The notes below the pieces were generated by a model. It did not search any database and was not told the DNA's origin. It was given only the letters and a program-made list of their open reading frames with translations. This document shows, in pieces, positions 9,404 to 56,022 of a stretch of 64,000 bases of DNA. Position numbers and translations under genes: made by a program. The stretch covers positions 1-64,000 of the forward strand of contig NZ_AULM01000011.1 of the NCBI RefSeq assembly GCF_000422285.1, read 5' to 3'. The DNA is from Desulfatiglans anilini DSM 4660. Lineage in GTDB: Bacteria > Desulfobacterota > DSM-4660 > Desulfatiglandales > Desulfatiglandaceae. Positions within the stretch are counted from its first letter, which is position 1; the number at the start of each line of letters is the position of its first letter.

Positions 9404-9869
9404 CGGAAACCGAAGGCGGGGGCTGTGATCGAAAGGGGATGCGGACTGCCGGGTTCATCGTTGATATAGACAACACTATTTTGGTGTTGAATCAGCAGGA
9501 GCGAGATTGACAGCGGGGCCGTAATTGGCTAGGAATATAGGCGCGGGTTTTCTAGAATGATGGTGGCGCCAGGTCCTGTCTGGCGGTGTTTACCTGTAAA
9601 TGATTTTCCGGTTCAATCCAGTTTCCAATCCGGAAAAGGAGTTTTTTCCACACTCCTCGGGTGCGAAGTCCTGCCCCTGCGAGGCGGGTTCTGGTTTGTC
9701 CATATGAAGGAAATCAAGCGTTGGCGCAGAGGCAGCCTATTTGGCACTGCACAAGCACATGTGCAGATTGACGCCGAGATCGGCAAAATGGACCATTTCC
9801 GGATGGAAACCAGACGGGACTTACCGGTGAGAGTTGAGTCCGGCCTATGGATGACGAGAGGAAGATAGT
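9404..9869. other. Intergenic region holding repeat copy R1
   Basis: No gene is supported in this gap of about 465 bases. Its central part is repeat copy R1 (9621-9810), described separately. The remaining flanks show no recognisable site apart from the ribosome-binding sequence GAGGAAG before the next gene. Confidence 0.6.
9621..9810 (-). repeat. Dispersed composite repeat, copy R1
   Basis: This 190-bp element is bounded by near-palindromes: GTTTCCAATCCGGAAA at 9621-9636 and TTTCCGGATGGAAAC at 9796-9810. Read on the minus strand it contains the block CGGCGTCAATCTGCAC, a CTTGATTTCCTT block, then a module with CCTCGCAGGGGCAGGAC followed by GTGTGGAAAAA. The same blocks in the same order occur at 20188-20480 and 33280-33495 on the plus strand. 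It lies between two small zinc-ribbon genes and disrupts nothing. Confidence 0.85.
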
Positions 9870-20187: not shown

Positions 20188-20480
20188 GTTTCCACCCGGA
20201 AATGGTCTTTTTGGCCAATCTCGGCGTCAATCTGCATGTATGCTTGTGCGCGGCGACCACCAGGTCGCCGCCGCACGCTAGATTTCCTTGATATCGGCCG
20301 AACTGGTACCCGTCCCGGCGGGGGAACCGAGCACACGCAGCGTGTAAAAAAACCGGGAACCGCGGTGAAGCGGTGGGACTGAGCACCAGAGAGGTGTGAT
20401 GAAACCGGGACCCGCCCCGCAGGGGTGGGACTGAGCACGCGCAGGGTGTAAAGAAAAATCCTCATTTCCGGCCTGGAAAC
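20188..20480 (+). repeat. Dispersed composite repeat, copy R2
   Basis: This 293-bp element is the largest copy of the family. It starts with GTTTCCACCCGGAAA (20188-20202) and ends with TTTCCGGCCTGGAAAC (20465-20480). Inside are GGCCAATCTCGGCGTCAATC, a hairpin-forming GGCGACCACCAGGTCGCC, GATTTCCTTGATAT, and then three tandem units of a G-rich module. It is on the opposite strand to R1 and has the same block order as R3. Confidence 0.85.
20301..20456 (+). repeat. Three tandem ~52-bp units inside R2
   Basis: Units at 20301-20350, 20351-20402 and 20403-20456 share the pattern CCGGGAACCG or CCGGGACCCG, a short GC hairpin, GGTGGGACTGAGCAC and GTGTAAA or GTGTGAT. The third unit can fold as CCCGCCCC-GCA-GGGGTGGG (with one G-U pair if transcribed). 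R1 and R3 each have one such unit, so the copy number varies between elements. Confidence 0.75.
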
Positions 20481-20818
20481 TGAATTCTACCGGGAAATCT
20501 ATTTTGGATGGACACCAGCCTATAAATGATCGGAGCCGTTTTCTTCCTCCTGCGAAACCGAATAGGGACCAAAACAATCAAGTGGGTTCCCATGTTTCTG
20601 GAATCGGAATTACATCTTGCTGGCGGTTGTGAAATCAGATATCTTAAAAGGGAATGCCCCGATGGTGGAAGGCCTTTCCGGAATCCTGCTCATGCCTCGG
20701 AGGCATCCATGATTCCAGGACCCCGAAGGGGTTTTATTTTTTTCGCCCCTGGAGGAAATAGGGCGCTCCAACGCAACGATGGGGAATGATTTACAAACTG
20801 ACGAAGGAGAATAAGTGC

Positions 20819-22296: not shown

Positions 22297-22312
22297 TTTC
22301 CGGATTGGAAAC
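22297..22312 (+). repeat. Solitary GTTTCC/GGAAAC-type palindrome
   Basis: TTTCCGGATTGGAAAC matches the terminal palindromes of the composite repeats R1-R3 but stands alone between the tRNA terminator and the cysteine fusion gene. Confidence 0.7.
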
Positions 22313-22404: not shown

Positions 22405-24741
22405 TCAGGCCTTGCCGGGGCCTGTTGTCGAGGTGCGCTGCCAGATCGTCCCTTCGGGGGTGTCCAGGAGCTCGATGCCACGCTCTTTGAGCCGGTCGCG
22501 GATGCGGTCGGCTGTTTCCCAGTCCTTTCTTCGGCGCGCCTCCTCTCTGGCGTGGATCGATGCTTCGATTTCGCCTTCGAGTGCGGCGGGTTCGAGGTTT
22601 AATACGCCGAGGACGCCGTTGACGGCCGTGAGGATTTCCAGAAATTTCTGTTTGTCCGCTTTGGCGAGCATGTTGCGGTCCAGGAGTCCGTTGACGCGGC
22701 GGATGAATTGAAAAAGGGCCGCAAGGGCGGCTGCGACATTCAGATCGTCGTCCAGGGCTTCGGTAAAACCGTGGCGCAGGTCGTACACGATCTGGTCCGC
22801 TTCGGGCTCGCTGCGGCCGTCGGGGCACTTGTGGAGCCGCTGGACGAATCCGTCGAGCCGCGCGATGGTGCTGCGGGCCGCATTCAGCTTCATCCAGGAG
22901 AAGACGATGGGCTTCCGGTGGTGCCGGCTGAGGATCAGGTATCGGATGTCCCTGCCGCTGTACCCCCGTTCGAAGATCTCCCGCAGTGTGAGCCCCTCCG
23001 CATCGGCGGCCTTGGAGGTGCGCCTGCCGTTGACCAGGACGTTTTCATGGTGCACCCAGTAGTTGGCCGGCGGCTGGTTGGTCAGGGCCTGGCTGATGGC
23101 GATGGCGTTTTCGTGGTGCGGGAAGATCAGTTCGATGCCGCTCGTGTGGATGTCGTAGGTGGGCCCGAGGTACTTCATGGCCATAGCGGAGCACTCGAGG
23201 TGCCAGCTCGGCAGGACGTTCCCCCACTGGGTCTGGTAGAAGATCCCCCGTTTGAGGGCGCTCAGGGTGGCGCGCTTGAGAAGGGTGAAATCCCGTGGGT
23301 TGTCTTTCTCGTAATTGTCGAGATCCACGGTCTTGCCCACCCGGATCTTCGTCAGGTCGATGTGCGAGAGGTTCCCGTAAGGCTTGAAGCGGGAGATGTC
23401 GAAGTAGATCGAGCGGAACTTTTCGTAGGCATAGCCTTTCTGAAGCAGTCTCCGCGCAAGGTCGATCATCTCCTCGACGTGCTCGCTGGCCTTGGGGTAA
23501 ACCGTGGCGGGCTCGATGCCGAGGCGTTCGATATCCTCCATAAAAGCGCGATTGAAACCCTCGGTAAAGTCCTTCAAGGGTACGCCGGCCTTCTCGGCGC
23601 CCTGGATCGTGCGGTCGTCGAGGTCCGTCAGGTTCGTCACCAGGGTGACACGGTACCCCTTGAAGCCCAGGTAACGCCGCAGGAGATCTGCGAAAAGAAA
23701 GCGCCGGGCGTGTCCGAGGTGGATGTACTGGCAGAGCGTCGGGCCGCAGCAGTACATCTTGACGTGGTTTTCCTCGATAGGGATCAGCTCTTCCTTGCGG
23801 CGGCTGAAGGTGTTGTAGATGTGGAGCCCCGAGCGCTTCTTGGCGGTGAAAAGCGCGGTGCTGAGATACCGTTCGCCGCCGTCCGGCAGGAGGACCACGA
23901 TCTTTCCTTCGGTCATTTCACGGGCGATGCGCAGGGCGACCGCCATGGCGGCGCCGGAACTCATGCCGACGAGCATGCCTTCTTTACGGGCAAGCTGCCG
24001 TGCGGTCTCGAAGGCCTCCTCATCGTCCACGTTTTCGATGCGGCTCAGAATCCGTTTGTCGAAGATTCCAGGCTGGTAGGACTCCTTCATATTCTTGAGG
24101 CCCTGAATCTTGTGCCCCATGTAAGGCTCCACCCCTACGATGGAGACATGGGGCGCCATCTCTGCGTAACGTTTTGCAAGCCCCATCAGCGTTCCGCTGG
24201 TACCCATGGTCGCGACGATCGCGCTCACCTGCCCTCCGGTCTGCTCCCAGATTTCGAGGGCGGTCCCCACGTAGTGTGCCTTCCAGTTGTTTTCGTTGTT
24301 GAACTGGTCCGCCAGCCAATATTTGTCAGGGGCCTCGCGCATGAGGTTGTAGACGTATTCGATCGCCCCGTCGGTTCCCATGTGGGCCGGCGTGAATTTG
24401 ATTTCCGCCCCGAAGGCCTTGAGGATCTTGACCCGCTCTTCGCTGACGGACTCCGACATGCTCAGAAGAATGCGGTAGCCTTTGACGGCGGCGACCATGG
24501 CGAGGCCGATTCCCGTATTGCCGCTGGTCGCCTCCAGGATGATTTTGTCCCGGGTAAGGTCCCCGCTCCTCTCGGCCTCTTCGATCATGTACAAGGCCGG
24601 CCGGTCCTTGATGGACCCGCCGGGGTTGAAGTACTCGAGTTTGGCCAGGACTTCGACGGATCTGCTGGGATTCAGGCGGTGGACCGGGATGAGGGGCGTT
24701 TGTCCAACATGATCCAGGATATTGTTTCGTTTTGTCTGCAT
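22405..24741 (-). CDS. Fused cysteine synthase / cysteinyl-tRNA synthetase
   Basis: This is one 778-residue reading frame with two enzymes. Residues 1-300 are a PLP-dependent O-acetylserine sulfhydrylase: the lysine is in NPGGSIKDRP (K45), the phosphate/substrate loop is EATSGNTGIG, and GTSGTLMG and DGGERYLST follow. Residues about 315-770 are a class I CysRS: CGPTLCQYIHLGHAR (HIGH box 341-344, zinc C332), NLTDLDD, SWHLECSAM (zinc C517), IFPHHENAIA and a DALR-like helical end. The usual KMSKSLGN loop reads RTSKAADAEG (574-583), keeping the second lysine only. ATG 24741 (CGGAG nine bases upstream) is chosen since the longer frame has no ribosome site. The two halves would make cysteine and charge it to tRNA-Cys. 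Confidence 0.9.
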   Translation of the reverse strand: MQTKRNNILDHVGQTPLIPVHRLNPSRSVEVLAKLEYFNPGGSIKDRPALYMIEEAERSGDLTRDKIILEATSGNTGIGLAMVAAVKGYRILLSMSESVSEERVKILKAFGAEIKFTPAHMGTDGAIEYVYNLMREAPDKYWLADQFNNENNWKAHYVGTALEIWEQTGGQVSAIVATMGTSGTLMGLAKRYAEMAPHVSIVGVEPYMGHKIQGLKNMKESYQPGIFDKRILSRIENVDDEEAFETARQLARKEGMLVGMSSGAAMAVALRIAREMTEGKIVVLLPDGGERYLSTALFTAKKRSGLHIYNTFSRRKEELIPIEENHVKMYCCGPTLCQYIHLGHARRFLFADLLRRYLGFKGYRVTLVTNLTDLDDRTIQGAEKAGVPLKDFTEGFNRAFMEDIERLGIEPATVYPKASEHVEEMIDLARRLLQKGYAYEKFRSIYFDISRFKPYGNLSHIDLTKIRVGKTVDLDNYEKDNPRDFTLLKRATLSALKRGIFYQTQWGNVLPSWHLECSAMAMKYLGPTYDIHTSGIELIFPHHENAIAISQALTNQPPANYWVHHENVLVNGRRTSKAADAEGLTLREIFERGYSGRDIRYLILSRHHRKPIVFSWMKLNAARSTIARLDGFVQRLHKCPDGRSEPEADQIVYDLRHGFTEALDDDLNVAAALAALFQFIRRVNGLLDRNMLAKADKQKFLEILTAVNGVLGVLNLEPAALEGEIEASIHAREEARRRKDWETADRIRDRLKERGIELLDTPEGTIWQRTSTTGPGKA

Positions 24742-24788
24742 CGGTGATTGCTCCGCCGGGATCATCCTGTCAACCGAAAAGCAACCCT

Positions 24789-24805
24789 GTTTCCGGACTG
24801 GAAAC
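24789..24805 (+). repeat. Solitary GTTTCC-GGACT-GGAAAC palindrome
   Basis: This is a perfect 6-bp inverted repeat with a 5-bp centre, of the same family as the ends of R1-R3. A second, half-kept version (CATTTCCGGATGGATG) is at 24825-24840. Both lie between the fusion gene and its promoter, so they fall in its untranslated leader. Confidence 0.75.
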
Positions 24806-24865
24806 GGGCTGGTGCCGGATGAACCATTTCCGGATGGATGAGGTCTAACTTCAAAATAAACTAAA

Positions 24866-24894
24866 ATGATATAAAAATAACATGGCTTTTGCAA
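24866..24894 (-). promoter_or_regulatory. Promoter of the cysteine fusion gene
   Basis: On the minus strand TTGCAA (24889-24894) and TATCAT (24866-24871) are spaced by 17 bases in an AT-rich stretch. This would give a 5' leader of about 115 bases that includes the palindromes at 24789-24840. Confidence 0.5.
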
Positions 24895-24916
24895 TCGGCA
24901 ATTTTCTTCTATGACC

Positions 24917-24944
24917 TTGAATCCTTTGGCGGATCGTTTATACT
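24917..24944 (+). promoter_or_regulatory. Promoter of the MFS gene
   Basis: TTGAAT (24917-24922) and TATACT (24939-24944) are spaced by 16 bases. The start would be near 24951, giving a leader of about 140 bases. It is back to back with the fusion-gene promoter. Confidence 0.5.
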
Positions 24945-25092
24945 GCAAGGATTCCGGCAGGCAGGAGGCGCGGTTCACCCCGTGTGCTTTCCGGCAAGCA
25001 GCCCTGTTTCCCCCGGAGAGTGCTTCGTACGGTCCAATTCGTGGACGATCCCATGACTGGTTTTTATCCTTTCAAAGAAACGCTGTGGGTGG

Positions 25093-26274
25093 ATGGTCTT
25101 CCCTTTCAGAATATTCCTGACCCTGTTTTCCGCTGTTTTCGTGACCACCATGGGGGCGGGTCTAGTGGCGCCGCTCCTGCCGGTTTACGCCCACGAACTC
25201 GGTGCCGAAGCACTCGAGATCGGCTTGATTTTCGGCTCTTTTTCCCTGACGCGGAGCCTGTTCGTCCCTTATTTCGGCAAGTGGTCGGATCGCCGGGGAC
25301 GCAAGCCCTTCATTGTAATCGGTTTGTTCGGATATTTCCTCGTCTCGCTCGCATTTACGGCTACGGAGGGGGTCTGGTCGCTGATCGCGATCCGGCTTGC
25401 ACAGGGGTTTGCTTCAGCCATGGTGCTGCCGGTGGCCCAGGCCTATGTAGGCGACATGACCCCTTCGGGCTGGGAAGGCCGGATGATGGGCGTGTTCAAT
25501 ATCGCCCTCTACTTCGGTTTGAGCGCAGGCCCGGTGCTCGGCGGAGTGCTGAGGGATTGGGCGGGTATCGATGTGTCTTTTCTCAGCATGGGGGCCCTTG
25601 CCCTGTTCGGGTTCCTGTTGAGCCTGATTCTCCTGCCGCGCGAGAAGAGCAGCCGGACGAAGGAAGCTGCCGCAGCGAAATCAGGGTCCGAGCGTCCGGT
25701 CGGACACGGGTATTCGACCCTTTTGAAGCGTCCGGCGGTGCGCGCGCTTTTCCTGTTCAGGGCGACCTTTACGACCGCGATCGGGATCACCTGGACCTTT
25801 CTGCCGCTCGGCGCCGGGACCCGCCTCGGGCTTTCGAGCTCCGCCATCGGTTTCGTCGTCATGGTGAACGTGCTGGTCGCTGCCCTTTGCCAGGCCCCTA
25901 TGGGATATCTTGCGGACCGGATCAGCAAAGGGCTTATGGTCGGCATAGGCGGGGTCATGGGCGCCGGCGCGATGCTTTTCCTGAGCGAGGCCTCGACTTT
26001 CTGGGGGCTTGTGTTGGCCAACAGCCTCTTCGGTCTGGCCGGCGGGATCGCCTTCCCGCCGGTGATGGCCCTGGGGGTGATCGAAGGCCGTGCGGCCCGG
26101 GCGATGGGGAGCCTGATGGGGCTCCTGGCGTTGGCGCACAGCCTCGGCATGCTTGCGGGGCCCGTATTGGGGGGATTCTTCATCGACTGGTTTTCTTTCG
26201 ATTGGATTTTCAGGGTGGGGGCTGGCATCATCGCCCTTGGAACCCTGATTTTCTGGATGCAATACAAAAGGTGA
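25093..26274 (+). CDS. Major facilitator superfamily transporter
   Basis: This 393-residue protein has twelve predicted helices. The MFS signature between helices 2 and 3 is FGKWSDRRGRKPFIV, and a related motif (GYLADRISKG) follows helix 8. Helix 5 carries GLSAGPVLGG, the antiporter motif C of drug/proton antiporters, so export of a small molecule is likely. The substrate cannot be told. It is followed four bases later by a small conserved-looking gene. Confidence 0.88.
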   Translation: MVFPFRIFLTLFSAVFVTTMGAGLVAPLLPVYAHELGAEALEIGLIFGSFSLTRSLFVPYFGKWSDRRGRKPFIVIGLFGYFLVSLAFTATEGVWSLIAIRLAQGFASAMVLPVAQAYVGDMTPSGWEGRMMGVFNIALYFGLSAGPVLGGVLRDWAGIDVSFLSMGALALFGFLLSLILLPREKSSRTKEAAAAKSGSERPVGHGYSTLLKRPAVRALFLFRATFTTAIGITWTFLPLGAGTRLGLSSSAIGFVVMVNVLVAALCQAPMGYLADRISKGLMVGIGGVMGAGAMLFLSEASTFWGLVLANSLFGLAGGIAFPPVMALGVIEGRAARAMGSLMGLLALAHSLGMLAGPVLGGFFIDWFSFDWIFRVGAGIIALGTLIFWMQYKR

Positions 26275-31623: not shown

Positions 31624-31657
31624 GAGAATAAACCCTTTCGCTTTTTCCCGTTCATGT

Positions 31658-33279: not shown

Positions 33280-33495
33280 GTTTCCATCCGGAAAGGGTCT
33301 TATTGGTCAATCTCGGGGTTGATCCGCACGGTTGCTTTTCCGGCGACGTGCAGGTCGCCTCTGCGGAAACGATTGACCTCCTTGATATTGTAAAAATAGG
33401 GACCCACTCCGCAGGGGTGGGACTGAGCACCCGGAGGGTGTGAAGAAATGTCCTCGTTCCCGGATCGACAGGAGAGCCGTGTCCATCCGGGAACG
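33280..33495 (+). repeat. Dispersed composite repeat, copy R3
   Basis: It begins with GTTTCCATCCGGAAA (33280-33294), then shows GGTCAATCTCGGGGTTGATC, GGCGACGTGCAGGTCGCC, CTCCTTGATAT and a single G-rich module (CCGCAGGGGTGGGACTGAGC). The right end has diverged into an 11-bp perfect inverted repeat, CGTTCCCGGAT at 33455-33465 and ATCCGGGAACG at 33485-33495. The 590-base gap from 33245 to 33835 holds no other supported feature. Confidence 0.83.
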
Positions 33496-37444: not shown

Positions 37445-37461
37445 GTTTCCGGATTGGAAAC
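37445..37461 (+). repeat. Solitary GTTTCC-GGATT-GGAAAC palindrome
   Basis: This perfect 6-bp inverted repeat with a 5-bp centre is of the dispersed family, followed by CCGGGATATCCTTCCCGG at 37472-37489, another inverted pair. It lies between two minus-strand genes. Confidence 0.72.
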
Positions 37462-37563
37462 GGGGTTCTGCCGGGATATCCTTCCCGGATGGTCACGATC
37501 TAGGCAATGGATTTGGCAGCAGTCGCAGATTGGATCGACCGCCTGCCTTCTTGATCCATAATC

Positions 37564-53965: not shown

Positions 53966-54614
53966 AGCAGCCCCCCGGCGTGGACGGGCTTCGCACGGTT
54001 GTATGGCGGGTATCGCGGGTGTGCGCATTTAGGACCATCGATGGCCGCGATATGCACCCATGCGTTGATCAAAATCGTGCGGTGGCCGAGAGAGCTATTT
54101 GAAAATTGCATTTTTGCATTAATAATAGCCAGCGCTTTGCAAAATTGCATATTTTTAAGGCGCAACACTTGTATCAATTGACCGGTCCTCTGAGATAACA
54201 CCTCGTTTTTGCTTCAATTTACAATTTCACGTCGCCGTTTTAGGTTCTTTGGCACGAACGATGCTTCACATCTCCCCTGTAGAAGTGCCTGCATAGAAAA
54301 CAGCTTCGAGAGTGGACGGCTTTCGGTTCGAAAGAGGCACCCCTTTTCTGCTGGTGAGGCAGTCTGTCTTGCGGGGTGATTCGTATCCGGGAATGGATTC
54401 GTTGGCGATCTCGACGGAAACTGGGCGTTTGCGGGAAGGCGGCCTATAGGCCGGTGGATAAGCAAACGTGCAAATGGATGCCGAGATTTGTCAAAAGACC
54501 ATTTCCAGAGGGAAACTCAATGGGGATAATCATTTCCGGCGCAGCCGGATGAATGAGAATGTACATGATCAGTATGGTGAAATACTGGCTGAAACGAAAG
54601 GAGATGAACAGGGT
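53966..54614. other. Intergenic region with partial repeat R4
   Basis: This gap of about 650 bases between tetR and the NifX-like gene marks the change from AT-rich to GC-rich sequence. It includes repeat R4. GCATTTTTGCATTAATAA near 54109-54126 and similar TTGCATATTTTT sequence at 54144-54155 are AT-rich and may belong to a promoter, but no hexamer pair is clear. No gene is supported. Confidence 0.5.
54380..54516 (-). repeat. Partial composite repeat, copy R4
   Basis: The right end TTTCCAGAGGGAAAC (54502-54516) and the block GTGCAAATGGATGCCGAGAT (54468-54487) match the corresponding end of R1 in the same orientation, as does the GCGTTTGCGGGAAGGCGGCC stretch. The G-rich tandem module is missing. 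It lies 100 bases before the first gene of the metallocluster operon. Confidence 0.65.
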
Positions 54615-55677: not shown

Positions 55678-56022
55678 AAGGCTGCGGATCTGGGAAGGCT
55701 CTCAAGCGGGGCCATCGTTCCCGGAAACGCCTCCGGTGGTTCGACACCATCCGGTAGCCACTCGAAGCGTATTTTTCGCTGGGCGGACGCGGCATGGAAG
55801 AGGAAGGCTTGTCTGCTGATGCTTTTCATACTAAAATTGATCGATTTGACTACGCGAACCAAAAGGGCCCCTTGATCGCCGGCGGCGCACACCGCATAAG
55901 ATGCTTTGCAGTCCGGCGGCCTAAAAGCCCAGGCGATCCATGCTCCGGTCGGCGTAACGAGTGAGATAAAAGGGGCGTTTGCGGACGTACATCACTATAG
56001 GGAAAAGGGAGGTTTTCGAAAT
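55678..56022. other. Intergenic region before the Mrp gene
   Basis: These 345 bases carry no supported gene. Open frames on either strand lack ribosome sites. AAGGGAGG near 56004-56013 is the ribosome site of the next gene. No terminator is seen, so transcription may continue through. Confidence 0.45.

Follow-up and report, generated by a model that had tools for sequence, protein, structure and literature searches.

The BOX elements of Streptococcus pneumoniae follow the arrangement boxA-(boxB)n-boxC, carry TIRs that resemble those of a resident IS (ISSpn2), and vary in length between strains (PMC3049150). For type II MITEs the similarity to an IS is confined to the ends (PMC10969869), while GTAG/CGTC REPs, which are found with RAYT (REP-associated tyrosine transposase), are dispersed intergenic palindromes (PMC3733652). 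We analysed a window of 64,000 nucleotides, meaning the whole stretch of DNA presented above, and its dispersed repeats are closest to pneumococcal BOX in plan. As in BOX, fixed end modules enclose variable tandem inner modules that fold largely apart, and the TIRs are IS-like (PMC3049150); unlike BOX, the family lies in another phylum and combines a candidate ISNCY partner with a two-hairpin 52-nt unit and nested inner and outer right ends. It resembles the type II MITEs Chunjie, Nezha and QMITEs in being short and free of an ORF, in sharing TIRs with an IS by similarity of the ends only, and in its target duplications, strong secondary structure and REP-resembling truncated derivatives (PMC10969869, PMC3049150), and differs from them in its variable inner 52-nt array and its several hundred copies per genome. 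Dispersed intergenic palindromes, some of them solitary, are a feature in common with GTAG/CGTC REPs, from which target duplications, a TIR-bounded unit of 140-330 bp and the lack of consistent RAYT flanking separate it (PMC3733652).

We found no description of this repeat family in the open-access literature that was searched. Our analysis indicates that the repeats very probably represent a non-autonomous modular MITE, whose anatomy and 6-bp-duplicating insertions are observed directly and whose mobilisation in trans by the transposase of an ISNCY-family IS we infer. As mobile DNA the family is ordinary in kind, although its modular plan is uncommon and the evidence for its insertion is unusually direct.

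Copies in the window and anatomy of the element

The window is positions 1-64000 of contig C9 of its own genome (G000, a 4.67-Mb draft), and was compared with a complete genome of the same genus (G001, one contig of 4.80 Mb). A sequence-only reading had placed four copies at 9621-9810, 20188-20480, 33280-33495 and 54380-54516, and all four are found at these positions with ordered blocks common to all. The ends given to them hold as the inner end of the element, but complete elements extend about 35 nt further to an outer end. The palindromes reported at 22297, 24789 and 37445 are also present in the window sequence, and a crude codon-usage gene call puts 4/4 long copies outside genes, in agreement with the claim that all are intergenic. 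The features are:

9586-9810, minus strand: one-unit MITE copy (outer end 9586, inner end 9621)
20188-20515, plus strand: three-unit MITE copy (units of 52 nt; inner end 20480, outer end 20515); three units also in G001
20188-20300, plus strand: left block of the 20188 copy, with left TIR and hairpin arm
About 20301-20405, plus strand: two more divergent units of the 20188 copy
20406-20456, plus strand: best-matching 52-nt unit of the 20188 copy, with two hairpins
20460-20515, plus strand: inner right end, 35-nt extension and outer right end of the 20188 copy
33280-33495, plus strand: MITE copy with one unit and a damaged right end (about 33495)
54378-54516, minus strand: MITE copy without a unit, 139 bp, inner end only
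22297-22312, plus strand: solitary end palindrome TTTCCGGATTGGAAAC; a larger element lies nearby in G001, where the alignment is not clean
24789-24840, plus strand: remnant, fused TIR palindrome and outer end
37445-37494, plus strand: remnant, fused TIR palindrome, 35-nt extension and outer end
9470-9472, unstranded: element-free site; two-unit element in G001, duplication decayed
31647-31650, unstranded: element-free site; one-unit element in G001, duplication decayed
54095-54100, unstranded: empty target; three tandem elements separated by TGTTTA in G001
55963-55968, unstranded: empty target GAGATA; 140-bp element between GGGATA and GAGATA in G001

Aligned copies share one order: after the left TIR GTTTCCATCCGGAAATGG come a stretch rich in T and a long arm that is self-complementary (CGTTTGCTTGTGCGGCGACCTGCAGGTCGCCTCCGCGCAAACG), then zero to three 52-nt units in tandem, the inner right end TCCTCATTTCCGGATTGGAAAC, a 35-nt segment and the outer end, which is a third TIR copy closing the 35-nt right extension. 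The core of about 141 bp is bounded by GTTTCCATCCGGAAATG at both ends and forms one end-to-end hairpin; the 176-nt form folds as DNA with -49.2 kcal/mol (z -8.5). The tandem units sit in the right arm, immediately inside the inner end, and element lengths are quantised at about 140, 176, 228 and 280 bp, with 328 bp for the 20188 copy. Units that seemingly stand alone lie inside elements that have lost their 5' part, the right end being mostly recognisable. At 140-330 bp, non-coding and in high copy number, the elements have the general properties of MITEs, and the zero to three tandem modules between fixed end modules are those of a BOX-type plan. Unit number, the count of which depends on the profile threshold, differs at orthologous sites between G000 and G001, and at many sites common to the two genomes the number of elements or of units is not the same. 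The changes in unit number may come about by slippage, or by unequal exchange among the tandem units.

A 17-nt terminus (up to 2 mismatches) has 340 matches in G000 and 488 in G001, compared to 1 and 2 matches of the reversed pattern, and the family is therefore not a product of chance. Left blocks numbered 37 in G000 and 45 in G001 per 400-kb sample. The density in sampled DNA, about 9-11 copies per 100 kb, extrapolates to about 400-500 copies per genome, figures that rest on pattern searches and on sampled DNA amounting to 464 kb in G000 and 520 kb in G001. The genome search of G000 returned 45 matches among 363 first-look candidates, 40 of these being scored. The repeat load of G001 is similar, and the 20188 copy has an orthologue there with 87% identity. 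Several draft contigs of G000 start or end inside elements or units (C1:22, C7:1, C11:18, C36:3, C45:7), so that the family probably breaks the assembly and its copy number is underestimated. The genome-wide count and the search for conserved structure, suggested earlier as checks on the family, were both carried out and yielded many copies and conserved hairpins, where few copies or no such structure would have counted against it.

Across the order, 85 genomes from 47 genera were searched with the left-end pattern, which is present in 37 of these genomes and in 24 of the genera, with zero control matches. Two families of the order account for all matches, and the other four have none. One genome of the second family (G049) has 46 left-end pattern matches, compared to 40 in G000.

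Insertions, target duplications and remnants

We compared the G001 region orthologous to the window, as well as a 400-kb region pair with a mean identity of 93-94%. Each genome has insertions that the other lacks: the filled G001 site GAATTC[176]GAATTC (CCGAATTC[element]GAATTCGCC) corresponds to the empty G000 site CCGAATTCGCC, the filled G000 site TAAATC[228 bp]TGAATC to an uninterrupted site in G001, and TCCTTAG[228]TCCTTAG is a further filled/empty example. At the 33280 site G001 has two elements, one flanked by AGACTT/AGACTT. A flank-match test that took in all elements with both ends found gave a per-position match of 0.77-0.95 at k=6 and background values at 4, 5, 7, 8 and 9. Outer ends match at 5/6 or more positions in 15 of 55 cases (shuffled mean 1.4, maximum 6 in 2000 shuffles), while inner ends show a duplication in 1 of 63; two 140-bp G001 copies terminate at the inner end. 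Insertion duplicates 6 bp of the target, with a consensus of about TARYTA, and the outer end is normally the right terminus. A preference of insertion for AT-rich TARYTA sites, followed by survival of copies between genes, would complete the picture.

These filled and empty sites, together with the copy counts against the reversed control, bear out the earlier description of a dispersed, block-structured mobile family, and of its suggestions the MITE reading is the one that fits, given the TIRs, the 6-bp target duplications and the insertion of whole elements. With several hundred copies, a candidate partner with the same ends and filled/empty sites in both directions, insertion targeting, partner dependence, array growth and MITE decay become directly testable.

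Tandem insertions were also observed. At G001:C1:2312542-2313133, which is empty at 54095-54100 of the window, three tandem elements have single TGTTTA copies between them, and a similar tandem pair elsewhere has TAGGTC common to both elements. Such an arrangement reflects either several insertions at one target or the duplication in tandem of an element together with its 6-bp target copy. Some insertions in G001 of about 90-155 bp, seen against the window at about 25394-25452 and against G000 C1:361547-361606, contain inverted local repeats, are not MITEs and are possibly fold-back assembly artefacts.

By the same crude gene call, 104 of 110 elements lie outside called genes. The intergenic ones are found between divergent (43), tandem (45) and convergent (16) genes, which approximately follows the available intergenic bases (66, 110 and 29 kb), and no bias to convergent gene junctions was seen among the 104.

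Another suggestion of the sequence-only reading was a REP/BIME family. In such a family, short palindromes would be mobilised or maintained by a RAYT, and the long copies would be clusters of REPs. RAYT-like genes do exist in G000 and G001, one such locus (on contig C44 of G000) has an element about 370 bp away, and solitary palindromes are real. But neither a Y1_Tnp search nor a close look at the four RAYT-like loci revealed consistent flanking by elements: the other three loci have none within 1 kb, and the orthologue of the C44 locus in G001 has none. Y1 chemistry in REP/RAYT systems inserts without target duplication, whereas here whole elements insert with 6-bp duplications. Moreover, the moving unit is about 176+52n bp and not a hairpin of 20-40 nt tagged GTAG/CGTC; no such tag adjoins the end palindrome on inspection. 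Together with the lack of convergent bias, and with deletion as an explanation of the remnants, this makes a REP/BIME origin extremely improbable. A RAYT-like protein at L087:6777-7670 (minus strand; NF047646, 72 bits, below the 80-bit cut-off), with a counterpart in G001, has a C-terminal helix-turn-helix and has apparently lost its HUH motif (DDQYQIVAE).

Deletion best explains the solitary palindromes, which would be remnants of the MITE, the direction of change being deduced from comparison. In some copies a deletion between two short TTTCC direct repeats would have removed the hairpin body and left the palindrome GTTTCCGGATTGGAAAC, and this is the expected product of a deletion from the TTTCC of the left TIR to that of the inner right end. 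At the site orthologous to 37445, G001 has a full 227-bp element with flanks GATCTC/GATCTA; the junction at 24789 is the same as that at 37445, and the outer end is kept. REP-like solitary palindromes can thus be deletion scars of a larger element, which is a trap for repeat annotation. In the same part of the window, a single 857-aa frame (22405-24978, minus strand) matches cysteine synthase over residues 87-377 and cysteine--tRNA ligase over residues 385-848, an apparent CysM-CysS fusion.

The 52-nt units

Could the elements (or, failing that, their 52-nt units) be kept as functional structured RNAs or regulatory sites such as an attenuator or a processing site, their mobility being incidental? 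The unit contains two covarying hairpins: across 42 distinct units, standard pairs fill 92.7% of the paired cells, and covariation scores 0.189 compared to 0.096 in shuffles, a signal that collapses once the partners are shifted by one column. The double-compensatory changes and the 43 of 104 intergenic copies between divergent genes are in line with such a function. However, the double changes fall mainly at two pairs and are linked to loop variants, so that they may represent few events, DNA-level palindrome repair also maintains hairpins, and unit number varies freely across orthologous sites. Rfam 15 at gathering score detects only two tRNAs in the window, and at E<=1 there is no credible match on the 20188 copy. 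We therefore regard selection for an RNA or regulatory function as distinctly unlikely, and a DNA-hairpin or template-switch origin of the unit covariation is equally possible. Of the earlier idea of transcribed structured RNAs, the unit hairpins with compensatory changes stand, and the RNA role itself is putative. A variant in which the unit is a transcribed RNA module (e.g. a tandem protein-binding or processing site) that rides on the MITE, with unit number tuning many neighbouring genes, seems very unlikely.

A covariance model of the unit finds at least 155 units in G000, at least 159 in G001, 22 in a further genome (G018) and fewer elsewhere. A kink-turn or box C/D reading of CUGA...UGAUGA looked attractive in one copy (about 20391 of the window) but was rejected on inspection, since a second stem that could pair is missing and the sequence in most copies is UGAAGA.

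A candidate autonomous partner

Within a transposase screen that covered PF01609 and PF01797 types, the DDE_Tnp_1 loci of G000 and G001 were scanned for the MITE TIR. Three loci of G001 (L142, L145 and L146) are copies of an IS of about 1.69 kb with the TIRs GTTTCCATCCGGAAAACG and GTTTCCATCCGGAAATAGGG (the second also given as GTTTCCATCCGGAAATAGGGTTTTT), the same as those of the MITE. One of the three copies is flanked by a perfect 6-bp duplication, TAAATA; the other two are without a clean duplication. The 455-aa ORF encodes an ISNCY-family DDE transposase (NF033593, 439 bits; cut-off 325) that also matches PF01609 (41 bits) and DUF772; acidic positions are conserved among its relatives in other genomes, and no solved structure matching it by sequence was found. 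The IS is thus a member of the ISNCY family, with which the MITE shares TIRs but no transposase. The ISDol1 subgroup of ISNCY makes duplications of 6-7 bp. Judged from these sequences, the 1.69-kb IS is likely the autonomous partner of the MITE, and its transposase would recognise the MITE TIRs and move the element in trans. Mobilisation by a transposase, as proposed earlier, is upheld in this form, with an ISNCY enzyme as the likely agent.

The ends of the IS and of the MITE were also compared in other genera. Elsewhere in the order, relatives of the IS terminate in GTGCCCATCCATAAATG, several of them with ends of the form GTGYCCATCCAKAAATG adjoining TAATTA- or TAACTA-like flanks. MITE copies in four other genera of the family (genomes G063, G045, G011, G064 and G006) are 176-177 bp long with perfect 6-bp duplications (TAGCTA, TAACTG, TAGCTC, TAATCA, TCATTA), and several of their outer ends have the form GTGCCCATCC, like those of the IS relatives.

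An alternative is that the same MITE is driven by a different transposase, unfound or extinct in G000, and that the ISNCY ends are shared by common descent. The similarity of IS and MITE is limited to the ends, and their internal sequences differ, so that simple internal deletion from this IS does not account for the MITE. Furthermore, the IS that shares the TIRs belongs to the same genus but was not detected in G000, and no ISNCY partner was detected in G049, a copy-rich genome from another family of the same order. Draft assemblies often lose multi-copy ISs. Against a different driver stand the TIR and the 6-bp duplication length that IS and MITE have in common, the changes of their ends in step across genera, and the presence of the youngest copies where the IS is found; we consider such a driver unlikely. 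For the ISNCY transposase as driver, the age of the copies can be compared: 10 of 45 copies are at least 97% identical to the joint consensus in G001, which has the IS, and 0 of 22 in G000, where it was not found, with a consensus that leans towards G001 as the source of more copies. The younger G001 copies fit, but do not prove, recent activity where the IS persists.
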